The notes below the pieces were generated by a model. It saw only the letters and a list, made by a program, of their open reading frames with translations, searched no databases and had not been told where the DNA came from. Shown piece after piece: positions 14,873 through 21,672 of a stretch of DNA of 64,000 nt (positions within the stretch are counted from its first letter, which is position 1; each line of letters opens with the position of its first letter). The stretch is from NCBI RefSeq assembly GCF_900102795.1, contig NZ_FMWG01000010.1, forward strand, positions 62,001-126,000, in the 5' to 3' direction. This DNA comes from Epibacterium ulvae. GTDB taxonomy: Bacteria; Pseudomonadota; Alphaproteobacteria; Rhodobacterales; Rhodobacteraceae. The position numbers and the translations under genes are program-made.

Positions 14873-16456
14873 CTATGACCGGATATCGCTACAGTCATTG
14901 TGCTCTGGTGGTATTGCGTAGCTGACAACTGATCGCGAGACGTTATGTAACTTGAGCGGCCCGAGTGGTTGAGCTGTGGCTGTACAGGTCTTACACAGAC
15001 TTTGATCATCAACAACGATTTGCGCATTGATGGATTTACCATAGTCCCCAAGGCGTGCCGCAATATTTGCAGCCTGCCCGATAACGGTGAAATCTAACCG
15101 CTCCCGTGATCCGATATTGCCATATGTCACGCTGCCAAAGGCAATTCCGATGGCACAATCCAAATCTGGCACGCCCATCTCAGCCCCAATCGGTTTGAGA
15201 GCCTGAACAATCAGGCGGGCCGCCTTGAGCGCGTTTTGCCTAGCAAGGTCAGGGTTTGAACCGGCAGGAAAGACGGCCAGCACCGCGTCACCAATGAATT
15301 TTAGAACTTCGCCGCCATTTTCCTCAATCAGGTCCGAGGTGCTTTCAAAAAACGTATTGAGCAGCGCAATATAGGCTTTGCGCCCCAGCAGGTCTTCTAA
15401 CAGCGTTGAACCGCGCAGGTCGCAGAACATAATGGCGGCATCAATTTCATCACCATCGCCGCGACGAATTTCCCCGCCTAAGACCCGTGCGCCAGATCGT
15501 TTGCCGACGTAAGTCTCTAGCAGCGATTTCGCATTTTCGCGTTGCATGAAGACTTCATAGAAGCGAGCAATAACCGCAGAACATTCAAAGATCAGGCCTA
15601 GGTGCTCTGTGCTAAACCCATCTGGGGTGTCGGTTGCAACGGTCATAACGTTGATCCGCCCGTCCGAAAAGGGCAGAGGCATTGCGACATAATCGGTGGC
15701 GCCTTCGTTTTGCAAATCCTCAAGGATCGGAAACGCAGTGATTTCGTTGCCCGCCGTCAAACGATGGCGGACCCCTCCCAACCCTTGTGATACATGCAAC
15801 ATAGGGCTGTTGCGATATTTGGGTTCGTCATAGATCGCATAAGAAGGCGCAAACACCTGCAACTCTTCTTTTGTTTTTGACCACAGGTAATGTTTACCTG
15901 CGATCATTGGATGTAAAGACCAAGCAAGAACCGAGAGACGTGATAAGGCGAAACCTTGTTCGATCATCTTATCAGCCAGTGCTTCCGTAAAGGCTTCGGG
16001 GGTTGCAATATAGGCCGCATCTCGCAGTAGCCAATCAACCAGAGGGCCGCTGATGCTCCGGTATTGTGGATCCAGAATTTCATTTCCGCCGGTGTCGATT
16101 TCCAGATCATCATGCGCGAGAAAGCTCACATGATTGCAGATCTCATGGGCATCGCTGAAGCTGCAATTATACTGCCAAGCGATATTTGAGAGTGTTCCCA
16201 TCGGCGACAGAAGATCACGATAATCCGCGGTACCTTTAAAAGGACAGAACGTTCGATGCGCAGTTGGCTCGGAAAGTCGTGCAATCATGTCTGCGACTGG
16301 AATATAGATCGCTGGTGAATGACGTGTTTCATACATCACCTTGGCGTTGGCGCTTTGCGCGATCAGCTGTCCTTTATGGCGTATGTAAACCGGCTGGTTC
16401 AACCGTTCGACAATGATTCCATAGCTTGTCGTCTGTTGGGGGGCATGCACGTTCAT
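14873..16456 (-). CDS. DUF427 domain fused to a class III adenylate/guanylate cyclase
   Basis: A 527-residue soluble protein. Residues about 12-85 match DUF427 (VMYETRHSPAIYIPVADM, then HRTFCPFKGTADY). About 100-310 is an unassigned region that may hold a GAF-like sensor (FPILEDLQNEGATDYVAMPL, later HLGLIFECSAVIARFYE). About 335-515 is the cyclase: D346 in MFCDLRGST and D390 in FIGDAVLAVF bind metal, K387 and D455 suit adenine recognition, and N464/R468 are the transition-state pair, so it should be active. The ATG at 16456 has AGAGGA 9 nt upstream. The locus continues upstream with a membrane winged-helix gene. Confidence 0.85.
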   Translation of the reverse strand: MNVHAPQQTTSYGIIVERLNQPVYIRHKGQLIAQSANAKVMYETRHSPAIYIPVADMIARLSEPTAHRTFCPFKGTADYRDLLSPMGTLSNIAWQYNCSFSDAHEICNHVSFLAHDDLEIDTGGNEILDPQYRSISGPLVDWLLRDAAYIATPEAFTEALADKMIEQGFALSRLSVLAWSLHPMIAGKHYLWSKTKEELQVFAPSYAIYDEPKYRNSPMLHVSQGLGGVRHRLTAGNEITAFPILEDLQNEGATDYVAMPLPFSDGRINVMTVATDTPDGFSTEHLGLIFECSAVIARFYEVFMQRENAKSLLETYVGKRSGARVLGGEIRRGDGDEIDAAIMFCDLRGSTLLEDLLGRKAYIALLNTFFESTSDLIEENGGEVLKFIGDAVLAVFPAGSNPDLARQNALKAARLIVQALKPIGAEMGVPDLDCAIGIAFGSVTYGNIGSRERLDFTVIGQAANIAARLGDYGKSINAQIVVDDQSLCKTCTATAQPLGPLKLHNVSRSVVSYAIPPEHNDCSDIRS

Positions 16457-16558
16457 GACAGCAGTTCCTCTCAGCAATGATGCCTGCTGGACCAGAATAT
16501 GGGAAGAATAGGTTAAATTTCTAGGCCTTTGCACCAAAAGGTGTGCAACTGTTCATAC

Positions 16559-17260
16559 CTAAATCATGCGAATGACGTCTTTCTGGATTGATAGCACATA
16601 ACCCCGTTTCGCGATATTCTTTACAAGCAGTTCGCTGACCAATTGATTGCCCAGCGTATCGCGCAGGCGTTTGATGCGTGTGGCACCGGCAGCCTCTTCG
16701 CAATCGGCGGCATCGCGTCCTGATATCACAGCCTCTATTTCCGCGCCTGAAAGAACGTCATCGTCAAGCCGGGCCTCTGCCAAAACGGCCAATGTCTCCA
16801 TTGCTGCGGGGGTCATTTTGAAACCCATATTGTTTAGATACACTGTGTTTTCATCGCGGCTGATCAAGAGCTCATTTACCTGAATGCCTGCGCGTTCGAT
16901 TTGTGCCATATGACGATTGAGCGTGACCAGCATCGCCAAAACCACAAGAGCTGCGATCATCATTGCGGTGGCAAACACCAGCAAAACAAAGATCACCATC
17001 CGGTAGCTGCCGAGCGTATCCGCAAAGGCGGTCCCTGATTGTGCCAGGATTTCCAGCAGTTTGATTTCTGCCTGGCCAGTCATATCGCTCTCAATAAAAA
17101 GCCGTTCGACCTGTGTGTTAAACGCATTGGCGTCTGGCAAGGTCAACAACAAGACTGTTCCAGCTAAAGCGAGCAGTAAGACGATGGTGACAATGCCAAA
17201 GGTGATGATGCGGCTGCCGACCGCGCGGGCCTCAGAAACGGAGATAATAGCGTCCGGCAT
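16559..17260 (-). CDS. membrane-anchored winged-helix (OmpR/CadC-type) regulator
   Basis: A 233-residue protein with two membrane helices (about 17-41 and 88-114) enclosing a short periplasmic loop. A cytoplasmic domain at about 130-226 resembles the OmpR/ToxR winged helix: a beta-hairpin LLISRDENTVYLNN, helices, then TRIKRLRDTLG, LLVKNIAKRGYVLS. The DNA-binding part is C-terminal, the reverse of CadC/ToxR. It probably couples an envelope signal to transcription. AAAGGA with a 7-nt gap precedes the ATG. It overlaps the upstream small periplasmic gene by 29 bp and lies 102 bp before the cyclase fusion, so the three may form an operon. Targets are unknown. Confidence 0.78.
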   Translation of the reverse strand: MPDAIISVSEARAVGSRIITFGIVTIVLLLALAGTVLLLTLPDANAFNTQVERLFIESDMTGQAEIKLLEILAQSGTAFADTLGSYRMVIFVLLVFATAMMIAALVVLAMLVTLNRHMAQIERAGIQVNELLISRDENTVYLNNMGFKMTPAAMETLAVLAEARLDDDVLSGAEIEAVISGRDAADCEEAAGATRIKRLRDTLGNQLVSELLVKNIAKRGYVLSIQKDVIRMI

Positions 17261-17525
17261 TGCCTTTCCTTTGCTTTAAACCTTCAGGTCCAAAAACCGT
17301 CATCACGTTCAGAAGGGTCCAGCCCTGCCCAGAGAGACGCGCGGCGATTTCCGACTTGGCAGAGCCCTTACTACAGGCTCCACGCAGCTCTACGACACCA
17401 TAGTGCAGCCGCAAAGGATTGTCTTTCTTGGCTTTATAGTCGGCATAACAATTCGCCGCCATAGCGGGTCCAGAGAGGCCGATGGAAAGCACGATAAAGA
17501 TTGGCAAAATTGTTTTGTACATCAT
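17232..17525 (-). CDS. small periplasmic protein, conserved hypothetical
   Basis: A 97-residue protein with a signal peptide (cleavage after about AMAA, residue 24). The mature part begins NCYADYKAKKDNPLRLHYGV and has two cysteines that could form a disulfide. A GWTLLNVMTVFGPEGLKQRK segment follows, with an aromatic end (YYLRF). I recall similar short proteins in other Rhodobacterales, without a function. Its 3' end overlaps the start of the membrane winged-helix gene, so the two are probably co-expressed, and it may be the partner sensed by that protein's periplasmic loop (inference). Confidence 0.75.
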   Translation of the reverse strand: MMYKTILPIFIVLSIGLSGPAMAANCYADYKAKKDNPLRLHYGVVELRGACSKGSAKSEIAARLSGQGWTLLNVMTVFGPEGLKQRKGNAGRYYLRF

Positions 17526-17703
17526 GCGGACATACTGCGCGGAACCTTGCTGATATTCAATAACGTCAGAGGGTTGGGGCCGGTGATATTGGATAACAAA
17601 GGCCTGATATTGCCTGTCTCAGGGGGGAGCTTCCATGTTGAGAGCAGCAAAGGGCCTATGGTTCACGGGCCTGTTCACTAAATACCTATGAAAGGCTCAT
17701 ATA

Positions 17704-18168
17704 ATGAAACGTCTTTTTTCTGCAAAACCTCATCGCGGCTTTATCGCACTTGTTCTTGCTTCAGCTGTCGCAATCAGCGGGTTTTCTGCGGCGCCGGCCC
17801 GAGCGGATAATGATGTTGCCAAATTTATAGCAGGTGCTGCACTGTTGGGGATCATCGGAGCTGCAATCCACGAGCACAAAGACGACAAACGTGAAAAACG
17901 TCGTCAAACTGTTCAGCACCCTCATAAGACGTACACGCCAAAACCTGTACCGTCACGTGTTTCACGCTATGACTTACCGATCAAATGCCAGCGTCACTTT
18001 CATGGGAAAAGCAGTGTCATATCGCGCGGCTGTCTGACTCGTCATCATACACGTGTGCAGAGCCTGCCCCATCGGTGTGGCCTGTCCTATTGGAACGGCA
18101 AGCGCTATCGTCAAGGGTTTGGTACGCATTGTCTGCGCAAACATGGGTATCGTCTGGTACATCGCTAA
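17704..18168 (+). CDS. secreted basic Cys/His-rich hypothetical protein
   Basis: A 154-residue protein. A Lys/Arg N-region and hydrophobic core end at about PARADN (residues 31-36), a likely signal peptidase site. A hydrophobic segment (FIAGAALLGIIGAAI) follows, then a basic, His-rich region, and a C-terminal part with four cysteines (KCQRH, RGCLTRHH, HRCGLSYWNGKRY, HCLRKHGYR). The cysteines would suit two disulfides in the periplasm. No family is recognised. It is divergent from the small periplasmic gene, with 178 bp between them. Confidence 0.65.
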   Translation: MKRLFSAKPHRGFIALVLASAVAISGFSAAPARADNDVAKFIAGAALLGIIGAAIHEHKDDKREKRRQTVQHPHKTYTPKPVPSRVSRYDLPIKCQRHFHGKSSVISRGCLTRHHTRVQSLPHRCGLSYWNGKRYRQGFGTHCLRKHGYRLVHR

Positions 18169-18266: not shown

Positions 18267-18884
18267 ATGGAACAGCCAGATTATAGTTTAGAAGCTGCTG
18301 CGCGAGAGCGTGGCTTTTTGTGTATCGCCGGGGTGGATGAGGTGGGGCGAGGGCCGCTTGCCGGACCTGTGACCGCGGCTGCGGTGATCCTAAACCCTGA
18401 CGACATTCCGATAGGGCTGAATGATTCAAAAAAATTGACCGCAAAGCGAAGGCTGGCGCTGAATGAGCAGATTCTACAACGCGCAGATTATGCGATTGCG
18501 CATGCCACTGTTTCTGAGATTGATGAAATCAATATCTTGAAGGCATCGCATTTGGCGATGGAACGTGCAGTGACTGCGCTGCCTAAGACGCCAGATTACC
18601 TGCTGATCGATGGAAATCTTATCCCCAATGGGGTGTCCATTTCGAGCGAAGCAGTTGTCAAAGGGGACGCGCTGTCTGTTTCGATTGCGGCTGCATCGAT
18701 CATTGCAAAGCAGGCACGGGATAAAATCATGGTTGATTTGGCGCAACAGTATCCGGGTTATGGATGGGAAACCAATGCAGGCTACCCGTCAAAAGCACAT
18801 CGCGAGGCCTTGATAGCCTTGGGGGTGACACCACATCACAGGGTTTCCTTTAAGCCGGTACACAATATATTGTATCAAGAGTAA
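18267..18884 (+). CDS. rnhB: ribonuclease HII
   Basis: Removes ribonucleotides from DNA and degrades RNA in hybrids. The 205 residues start with the DEDD signature GVDEVGRGPLAGPV and include LNDSKKLTAKRR, DYLLIDGN, KGDALSVSIAAASIIAKQARD and the end motif HRVSFKPV. The frame is open upstream to 17985, but homology begins at the ATG at 18267. ccrM follows on the same strand after 70 bp. RNase HI is also present (48908-49369). Confidence 0.96.
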   Translation: MEQPDYSLEAAARERGFLCIAGVDEVGRGPLAGPVTAAAVILNPDDIPIGLNDSKKLTAKRRLALNEQILQRADYAIAHATVSEIDEINILKASHLAMERAVTALPKTPDYLLIDGNLIPNGVSISSEAVVKGDALSVSIAAASIIAKQARDKIMVDLAQQYPGYGWETNAGYPSKAHREALIALGVTPHHRVSFKPVHNILYQE

Positions 18885-18888
18885 AGCG

Positions 18889-20097
<1,209 letters not shown>

Positions 20098-20196: not shown

Positions 20197-20277
20197 GTCC
20201 TGGACAGATGGTTCAGGAAACACGTGCAGTCTCAGGATGTAGCACCTATATGTGATCGCGTTATGGAGGACCGCCTC

Positions 20278-21672
20278 ATGAGCGATACGGCATTGCACCC
20301 AACAACTGCAGAAGCGCTTGCGCGTCAGCCGGATCGGTTGGGAGATACTGAGCTGAGTGATAACGACTATGCGTTGAACTCGCTCAAAGCGCACAAACAG
20401 CGCGGATTAGAGCTGGCAGTGCGCGCGCGCTGGATCGCGATGGCAGCGACGGCAATTTTTCTGCTGTTTGTCTATCCCGATTGGGCTGTGATCTACTATC
20501 TCGCTATACTGGGCTTGATGTGCCTGAACGGCTATTTCATTCAAAAAGTTGGCCGTGTGGGACAGTCGCGACAAGAGCTATTCCTGATTTTCGTCGATTT
20601 GGCCCTACTGACATTTGCAATCGTGTGTCCCAACCCATTTGCAACCGTCGAGTTGCCAGTTGCCTTTCAATACAGGTTCGACAATTTCATGTATTTTTAT
20701 GTGATTTTGGCGGTGGGCACGCTTGCTTACTCGTGGCGTACCGTCGTTGCGATTGGCACATGGACCACTGGCATATGGATGTTTGGTCTTTTGTTAGCAT
20801 GGTGGTTTTCGACGCCGGATCTCGCGTTGCAAGCAGTGGTTTATGAGGCATTTAAAGATGCGCCCCGTATTTTGGAGATTCTGGATCCGAACAGTTTTAT
20901 GTTCTCCTTCCGCATTCAGGAGGTAATGGTGTTTCTGCTAACCGCAGTCACACTTGGCCTGTCTATCCGCCGGTTTGACGTATTGCTGTTATCAAACGCA
21001 GCGCTTGCCCGTGAAAGGGCTAATTTATCGCGCTACTTTTCACCCAATGTGGTGGAGCAGCTGTCAAAGAATGACGACCCTTTGAAACAGGTAAAACGGC
21101 AAAAAGTCGCGATCTTATTCGTTGATATTGTCGGGTTCACACAAATTTCTGAAACCAAAAGCCCCTACGCGGTGATTACAATGTTGCGAGAATTTCATGC
21201 CCGGATGGAGCGCGAGGTGTTCCGCCACAATGGGACTTTGGACAAATATCTGGGCGATGGACTGATGGCCACATTTGGCACGCCAATTGCGGGTGAACAT
21301 GATGCTGAACATGCGGTTTCTTGTGCATGCGCGATGCAGACCGCTATGGATCACTGGAACCAGGAACGCATGCGCCGTGGAGAAGAGCCAATCGAGATCG
21401 GCGTCGGCGTCCATTACGGTGATACGCTGTTAGGCGATATTGGCGCCAACCGCTTGGAATTCGCGGTTATTGGCACCGCAGTGAATGTAGCGTCGCGTCT
21501 TGAAGGTCTGACACGGGTTTTGCCTGCACGCATTGTGGTTAGCAAAGATGCCTTCGATCAGATTCCAGCCGGCACACGTGATCTGTACGAAGGGTTTCAG
21601 CGGAAAGATGATCAGACTGTGCGGGGTATTCGCGAGCCGATTTCGATTTATTACCGCACCTCTTCTGGTTGA
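20278..21672 (+). CDS. membrane-bound class III adenylate/guanylate cyclase
   Basis: A 464-residue protein with a cytoplasmic N-terminus (about 1-50), roughly six membrane helices (52-66, 69-87, 102-117, 138-155, 157-176, 213-230), a short linker and a catalytic domain at about 272-460. D283 in LFVDIVGFT and D327 in YLGDGLMATF are the metal ligands, K323 recognises base, and N403/R407 lie in GTAVNVASRLEG. The usual base-selecting Asp is Glu (RLEFAVIG). GGAGGA upstream fixes the ATG at 20278. It probably makes cAMP in response to a membrane signal. Its end overlaps convergent alkB by 22 bp. Confidence 0.9.
   Translation: MSDTALHPTTAEALARQPDRLGDTELSDNDYALNSLKAHKQRGLELAVRARWIAMAATAIFLLFVYPDWAVIYYLAILGLMCLNGYFIQKVGRVGQSRQELFLIFVDLALLTFAIVCPNPFATVELPVAFQYRFDNFMYFYVILAVGTLAYSWRTVVAIGTWTTGIWMFGLLLAWWFSTPDLALQAVVYEAFKDAPRILEILDPNSFMFSFRIQEVMVFLLTAVTLGLSIRRFDVLLLSNAALARERANLSRYFSPNVVEQLSKNDDPLKQVKRQKVAILFVDIVGFTQISETKSPYAVITMLREFHARMEREVFRHNGTLDKYLGDGLMATFGTPIAGEHDAEHAVSCACAMQTAMDHWNQERMRRGEEPIEIGVGVHYGDTLLGDIGANRLEFAVIGTAVNVASRLEGLTRVLPARIVVSKDAFDQIPAGTRDLYEGFQRKDDQTVRGIREPISIYYRTSSG

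Follow-up and report, generated by a model that had tools for sequence, protein, structure and literature searches.

ToxR-like regulators have an N-terminal cytoplasmic DNA-binding domain, one membrane helix and a C-terminal periplasmic domain, and ToxR, CadC and TcpP, with their partners of the ToxS and TcpH type, are the described systems closest to a gene pair in a 64,000-nucleotide stretch of Epibacterium ulvae DNA (contig NZ_FMWG01000010.1, positions 62,001 to 126,000; the whole stretch is hereafter the window). The pair, which lies on the minus strand and whose genes we call peri and wHTH, has in common with these systems a winged helix of the OmpR type anchored at the inner membrane and the pairing of its gene with that of an exported partner. 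In wHTH the OmpR-type DNA-binding domain is present as a predicted fold, and its gene is linked to that of a secreted protein, but its topology is not that of a ToxR-like protein, as two helices precede a C-terminal DNA-binding domain and the presumed sensor is a short inter-helix loop. A second comparator is the OmpR/PhoB class of response regulators, for example CenR of Rhodobacter sphaeroides, which has the same DNA-binding fold, but from which wHTH differs in having no receiver domain, in its membrane anchor and in an inverted-repeat operator; in one published account (PMC9275681) the CenR operator is the direct repeat TGA-N8-TGA. Sequence comparison leads us to propose, with a probability of roughly 0.6, that peri and wHTH form a family-specific, membrane-anchored one-component regulator with a periplasmic partner, which would control itself by binding the palindrome GTTAT-YSR-ATAAC.

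The sequence-only reading of this locus had described an exported protein overlapping a membrane winged-helix protein by 29 bp, followed after 102 bp by a cyclase fusion, and re-reading of the open reading frames reproduced this minus-strand layout exactly: peri, a small exported protein of 97 amino acids (17232..17525), overlaps wHTH, of 233 amino acids (16559..17260), at positions 17232-17260, and a gap at 16457-16558 separates wHTH from a DUF427-cyclase of 527 amino acids (14873..16456). The three genes are real, yet they are not one system; peri and wHTH are the unit and the cyclase is an optional extra. The peri signal peptide ends in AMA, and its two cysteines, C26 and C51, are invariant in an alignment of 76 sequences. 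The protein is predicted to form a single b-b-a-b-a domain (mean predicted local distance difference test, pLDDT, of 85.7), and it matched no Pfam family and, by sequence, no known regulator partner protein. For wHTH, hydrophobicity and charge place membrane helices at about residues 18-42 and 86-112, with a conserved loop between them (about 43-85) predicted to be periplasmic, followed by a cytoplasmic C-terminal winged helix of the OmpR/PhoB type, wing included, predicted at about 128-228. The sole domain found is Trans_reg_C (148-223, E 6e-4), which scores 20.3 bits, under the curated cut-off of 26.2, and which all 58 aligned relatives of wHTH match at E <= 1; there is no N-terminal receiver domain, residues 1-125 being membrane helices and loop. 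The recognition-helix region is nearly invariant in the alignment, and structural matches include 5ju7 (CadC) and 8b4b-8b4e (ToxR).

The pair was surveyed in 248 genomes, one per genus, of the same family, by which we mean Rhodobacteraceae in the broad sense, as read from the names of the nearest relatives of the source genome (Leisingera, Tritonibacter, Epibacterium, Phaeobacter and Ruegeria). The wHTH protein is present in 197 genera and peri in 196, and when the two sets were compared by eye both were present in 196, wHTH alone in one (G064) and neither in 51. A profile search of 289 class-wide genomes returned four wHTH matches, all from this family and none from outside it; in a sample of the order, all of whose members belong to the family, the same kind of search found wHTH in 110 of 121 genomes, and in none of the six genomes of genus g24. 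Gene order was then read in 100 further genera out of the 197, some of these loci being shortened at their ends, and peri lies upstream of wHTH on the same strand in 98, is inverted in one and is on another contig in one. Of 80 named loci of close relatives, with start codons chosen by us, 76 show an overlap of 29 bp between the two genes and the other four one of 35 bp, a constancy that is more than chance. Lack of conservation of the neighborhood outside this strain was to count against the sequence-only reading; the pair is conserved far beyond it, and an exported protein and a membrane winged-helix protein kept as an overlapping pair fit the path from periplasm to DNA that had been suggested. 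One contig titled Nocardioides marinus (JAHVJD010000003.1) carries the locus, with 85% identity to the protein in the window, and this is probably a mislabeled genome.

The candidate operator emerged when words were counted in the regions before peri in 98 genera and palindromic ones proved strongly enriched. The 98 are the 100 further genera without two loci that have no plus-strand peri upstream (L129 and L203), and a matrix seeded from the window was both trained on and scanned over the same 98 upstream sequences. The predicted operator is a 13-bp palindrome, GTTAT-YSR-ATAAC, usually present before peri as two or three copies set at constant distances. At least one site was found in all 98 genera at 9 bits, compared with 2.7 of 98 in shuffled sequences, and at the stricter core threshold of 15 bits 95 genera have a site and 63 have two or more. 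The 80 named loci behave similarly, with one site in 79 and two in 71. Within the window, all on the minus strand, O1 (GTTATTGAATATC, 17552..17564) ends 26 nt before the peri ATG and aligns with sites in other genera; O2 (GTTATCCAATATC, 17585..17597) lies 33 bp upstream of O1; and O3, a degenerate copy read by eye (GACAGGCAATATC, 17606..17618), lies 21 bp upstream of O2, its position and form recurring in other genera. The spacing from O3 to O2 is 21 bp in 43 genera, that from O2 to O1 is mostly 31-33 bp (54 genera), and of the 93 genera in which an O1 could be assigned, 53 have it ending 26 or 27 nt short of the peri start codon. A strict tandem pattern has a single occurrence in each of 39 genomes out of the 248, every time adjoining wHTH and peri, while the same pattern read backwards occurs in none of the 248; occurring once per genome and always beside the pair, the array is essentially private to the peri-wHTH locus. 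The source genome holds three exact single sites, two of which are O1 and O2. One exact operator-like site of the source genome lies upstream of a gene for an MBL-fold hydrolase (G000:C15:140547-140559).

A second site lies in the complex I gene cluster, where same-genus genomes have five exact operator sites before the same gene for a secreted DUF5333 protein. The upstream regions of DUF5333 are independent of the construction of the matrix, and 95 such loci were scanned, drawn from 90 genera, out of 177 in which DUF5333 was matched, and from five same-genus genomes. A site of at least 15 bits, 42-108 nt before DUF5333, is present in 63 of 77 genera with wHTH versus 3 of 13 without it, a count that omits the five same-genus loci (all five with a site, wHTH having been checked in only some of them) and four genera with DUF5333 and no wHTH whose place was not listed (G028, G102, G226 and G227). 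None of the 95 shuffled upstream regions had a site, and when the wHTH-lacking genera are restricted to genomes of at least 90% completeness, one of nine has the site. All 30 long loci have nuoG with DUF5333, and 22 of the 30 have nuoF in the flank on the same strand; in the source genome nuoF is followed by a lipoprotein-like gene, then by the site GTTATTGCATAAC and DUF5333, and nuoG comes 3 nt after the latter. In two other genera (G003 and G013, at 1501-1513 of loci L265 and L267) an operator-like site precedes meaB, which is not conserved upstream of that gene, being found in one of 30 loci, the seed itself.

Several observations weigh against a self-controlling wHTH that binds these sites. 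The operator is an inverted repeat, whereas OmpR-type domains usually bind direct repeats, and the structure model of wHTH is a modest one (pLDDT 70.2, predicted template modeling score 0.44). Of the 197 genera with wHTH, 158 show no match to the strict tandem pattern. In three loci (L127, L129 and L203) wHTH has been relocated and has no site while peri keeps its sites, which means that strict autoregulation of wHTH is not universal; for this comparison L270 was read by eye. At 15 bits the DUF5333 site is missing in 14 of the 77 genera with wHTH, and it is present without wHTH in G008 (82% complete), G096 (77%) and G194 (98%), while the association of site and wHTH (Fisher p 5.8e-5) ignores kinship. 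G194 (L311) is also an exception to co-occurrence, as it has no match to either wHTH or peri and has kept its DUF5333 site. The direct-repeat preference of OmpR-type proteins, the relocated genes and G194 would all suit a different arrangement, which we consider rather unlikely, in which the palindrome is bound by an unlinked regulator that has peri-wHTH and DUF5333 among its targets, with wHTH acting as a regulator of other genes. That arrangement is harder to reconcile with a DUF5333 site that follows the presence of wHTH, with a strict tandem array found once per genome and in 39 of 39 cases beside the pair, which would be odd for a regulator encoded elsewhere, or with L128, in which wHTH lies 4.1 kb away from peri and operator sites have gone along with both of the separated genes.

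The third gene of the locus had been taken as the output of the pair, by way of a path from periplasm through a membrane-tethered DNA-binding protein to a cyclic nucleotide. Its product has an N-terminal DUF427 domain (residues 24-114, E 1.3e-20), a middle sensor-like region and a class III cyclase domain (340-503; Guanylate_cyc, E 2.7e-11), as defined by Pfam and alignment, and it is a member of the alphaproteobacterial class III cyclases with a DUF427 N-terminus, here lying behind the pair with its own promoter. Class III cyclases use two metal-binding aspartates, an adenine-binding lysine and Asp/Thr, and a transition-state asparagine and arginine, and alignment to solved cyclases finds all of these kept, as D346/D390, K386, D455/T457 and N464/R468, respectively, so that the predicted catalytic set is complete. 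Matches to the cyclase occur in 22 of the 248 genera, with one of them (G141) partial, leaving 21 full-length relatives at E <= 1e-60. In sixteen of these the cyclase follows wHTH on the same strand at a distance of no more than 800 bp; of the others one is 6.1 kb away (G213), three are on other contigs (G100, G139 and G245) and one is in a genome with no pair (G078). The cyclase is also carried by 57 of the 80 close named loci, 70-782 bp downstream of wHTH, and lies downstream of the pair in three of the 100 further genera. Two relatives each contain one in-frame stop (G073:C3:153630-155177 and G078:C51:25723-27261).

The retained catalytic residues and the frequent adjacency speak for a cyclic-nucleotide output, to which we nonetheless give very little credence, since at least 175 of the 196 pair-bearing genera have no full-length cyclase relative at this threshold, the gap to wHTH varies from 70 to 782 bp, and the fusion also occurs in other families of the class, in which no wHTH turned up in the class-wide search and at least 11 genomes have full-length relatives that include DUF427, at 36-46% identity, and one further relative aligns to residue 415 only. 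The gene moreover has a predicted promoter of its own, RpoH-like, CTAGAAATTT-N10-TCCCATATTC (16495..16524, minus strand), 38 nt before the cyclase ATG, and no operator palindromes precede it. A two-block element, CTTGGAATT-N11-CCCCATATA, is found between wHTH and the cyclase at a score of at least 10 bits in all 58 sequences, compared with 0, 0 and 2 of 58 in shuffles, and when trained on 28 loci it was recovered in 28 of 29 held-out loci, in one of 29 regions upstream of peri and in none of 29 upstream of rnhB. It resembles in its -35/-10 shape the R. sphaeroides RpoHI/RpoHII promoters, in which a TTG in the -35 is a common feature (PMC3441632), but the window copy, CTAGAAA, has TAG in place of TTG, and several relatives have CTG. 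We read the cyclase as a separate accessory gene with a predicted alternative-sigma-type promoter. The sequence-only reading had joined the three genes as one unit, against which separate promoters and uncorrelated expression were to count, and a separate predicted promoter is what we find; of the proposed path the conserved, overlapping pair survives and the cyclic AMP output is not supported. A regulatory link may still exist in the cyclase-bearing subclade, where cyclase and pair are usually adjacent.

Divergently upstream of the pair lie two conserved plus-strand neighbors, rnhB, encoding RNase HII (18276..18884; 85 of the 100 further genera), and a ccrM-type DNA methyltransferase gene (18955..20097; 84 of 100), the latter described as tending toward origin proximity in the same order (PMC8116508). 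Their conservation, together with the sub-threshold Trans_reg_C score of the window protein, might suggest that the OmpR-like domain of wHTH does not bind DNA and is instead a protein-interaction module, for example tethering the ccrM and rnhB products or the chromosome at the membrane; the full OmpR-type fold with its wing, the nearly invariant recognition-helix region and the operators make this improbable. Between peri and rnhB, on the plus strand, lies a gene (17704..18168) whose secreted product is rich in glycine over one stretch and rich in cysteine at its C-terminus. It was detected by tblastn in 71 of the 100 further genera, has its intergenic region in common with peri, and could be co-regulated with it through the common operator region. 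Finally, downstream of ccrM there is a second class III cyclase, of membrane type (20224-21672, plus strand; Guanylate_cyc E 7.6e-27), which is found in most named relatives, yet in only six of the 100 further genera.

Conservation, co-occurrence, the operators and their positions are what the analysis itself yields, and from the invariant OmpR-type recognition region, the array at its own operon and the second site that tracks wHTH we infer that wHTH is the binder of the palindrome. In this proposal wHTH would be anchored in the inner membrane by its two helices, with the short conserved periplasmic loop taking in a signal and the cytoplasmic OmpR-type domain binding GTTAT-YSR-ATAAC. Two to three sites, spaced by roughly two and three turns of the helix, would cover the promoter region of peri, which suggests that the pair controls its own expression, and because the position of O1 in most genera is expected to coincide with part of the core promoter, we infer that autorepression is the likelier sign. 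Autorepression may be relieved or enforced by a periplasmic signal acting through the wHTH loop and peri, and peri, secreted and with its invariant cysteine pair, most likely modulates that loop by a contact that we predict. The extra site before DUF5333 makes this secreted protein a likely further target of adjustment by wHTH, and the complex I operon, in its distal half, a possible one. As to what is sensed, the secreted products, the two cysteines and the connection with complex I suggest the condition of the periplasm or of the inner membrane. More tentatively, and below even odds, a secreted disulfide-bearing partner may inform a reversed-topology regulator that senses the periplasm or inner membrane and is dedicated to complex I (DUF5333 and the nuo genes from nuoG on), beside ccrM.

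We know of no earlier description of a membrane transcription factor with this reversed topology whose gene overlaps that of a secreted partner. A limited literature search found no publication on the operator words, on DUF5333 or on the presumed Dinoroseobacter shibae locus tags next to ccrM, and none linking ccrM with a winged helix; among papers judged by their titles and the opening lines of their abstracts none concerned the peri-wHTH pair. The D. shibae tag near ccrM, Dshi_0024, comes from PMC4046655. The candidate reversed-topology regulator is present in 197 of the 248 sampled genera. Both its operator and its second target, among the complex I genes, are predictions, and they make a possible link from the periplasm to respiratory gene expression accessible to a direct test.
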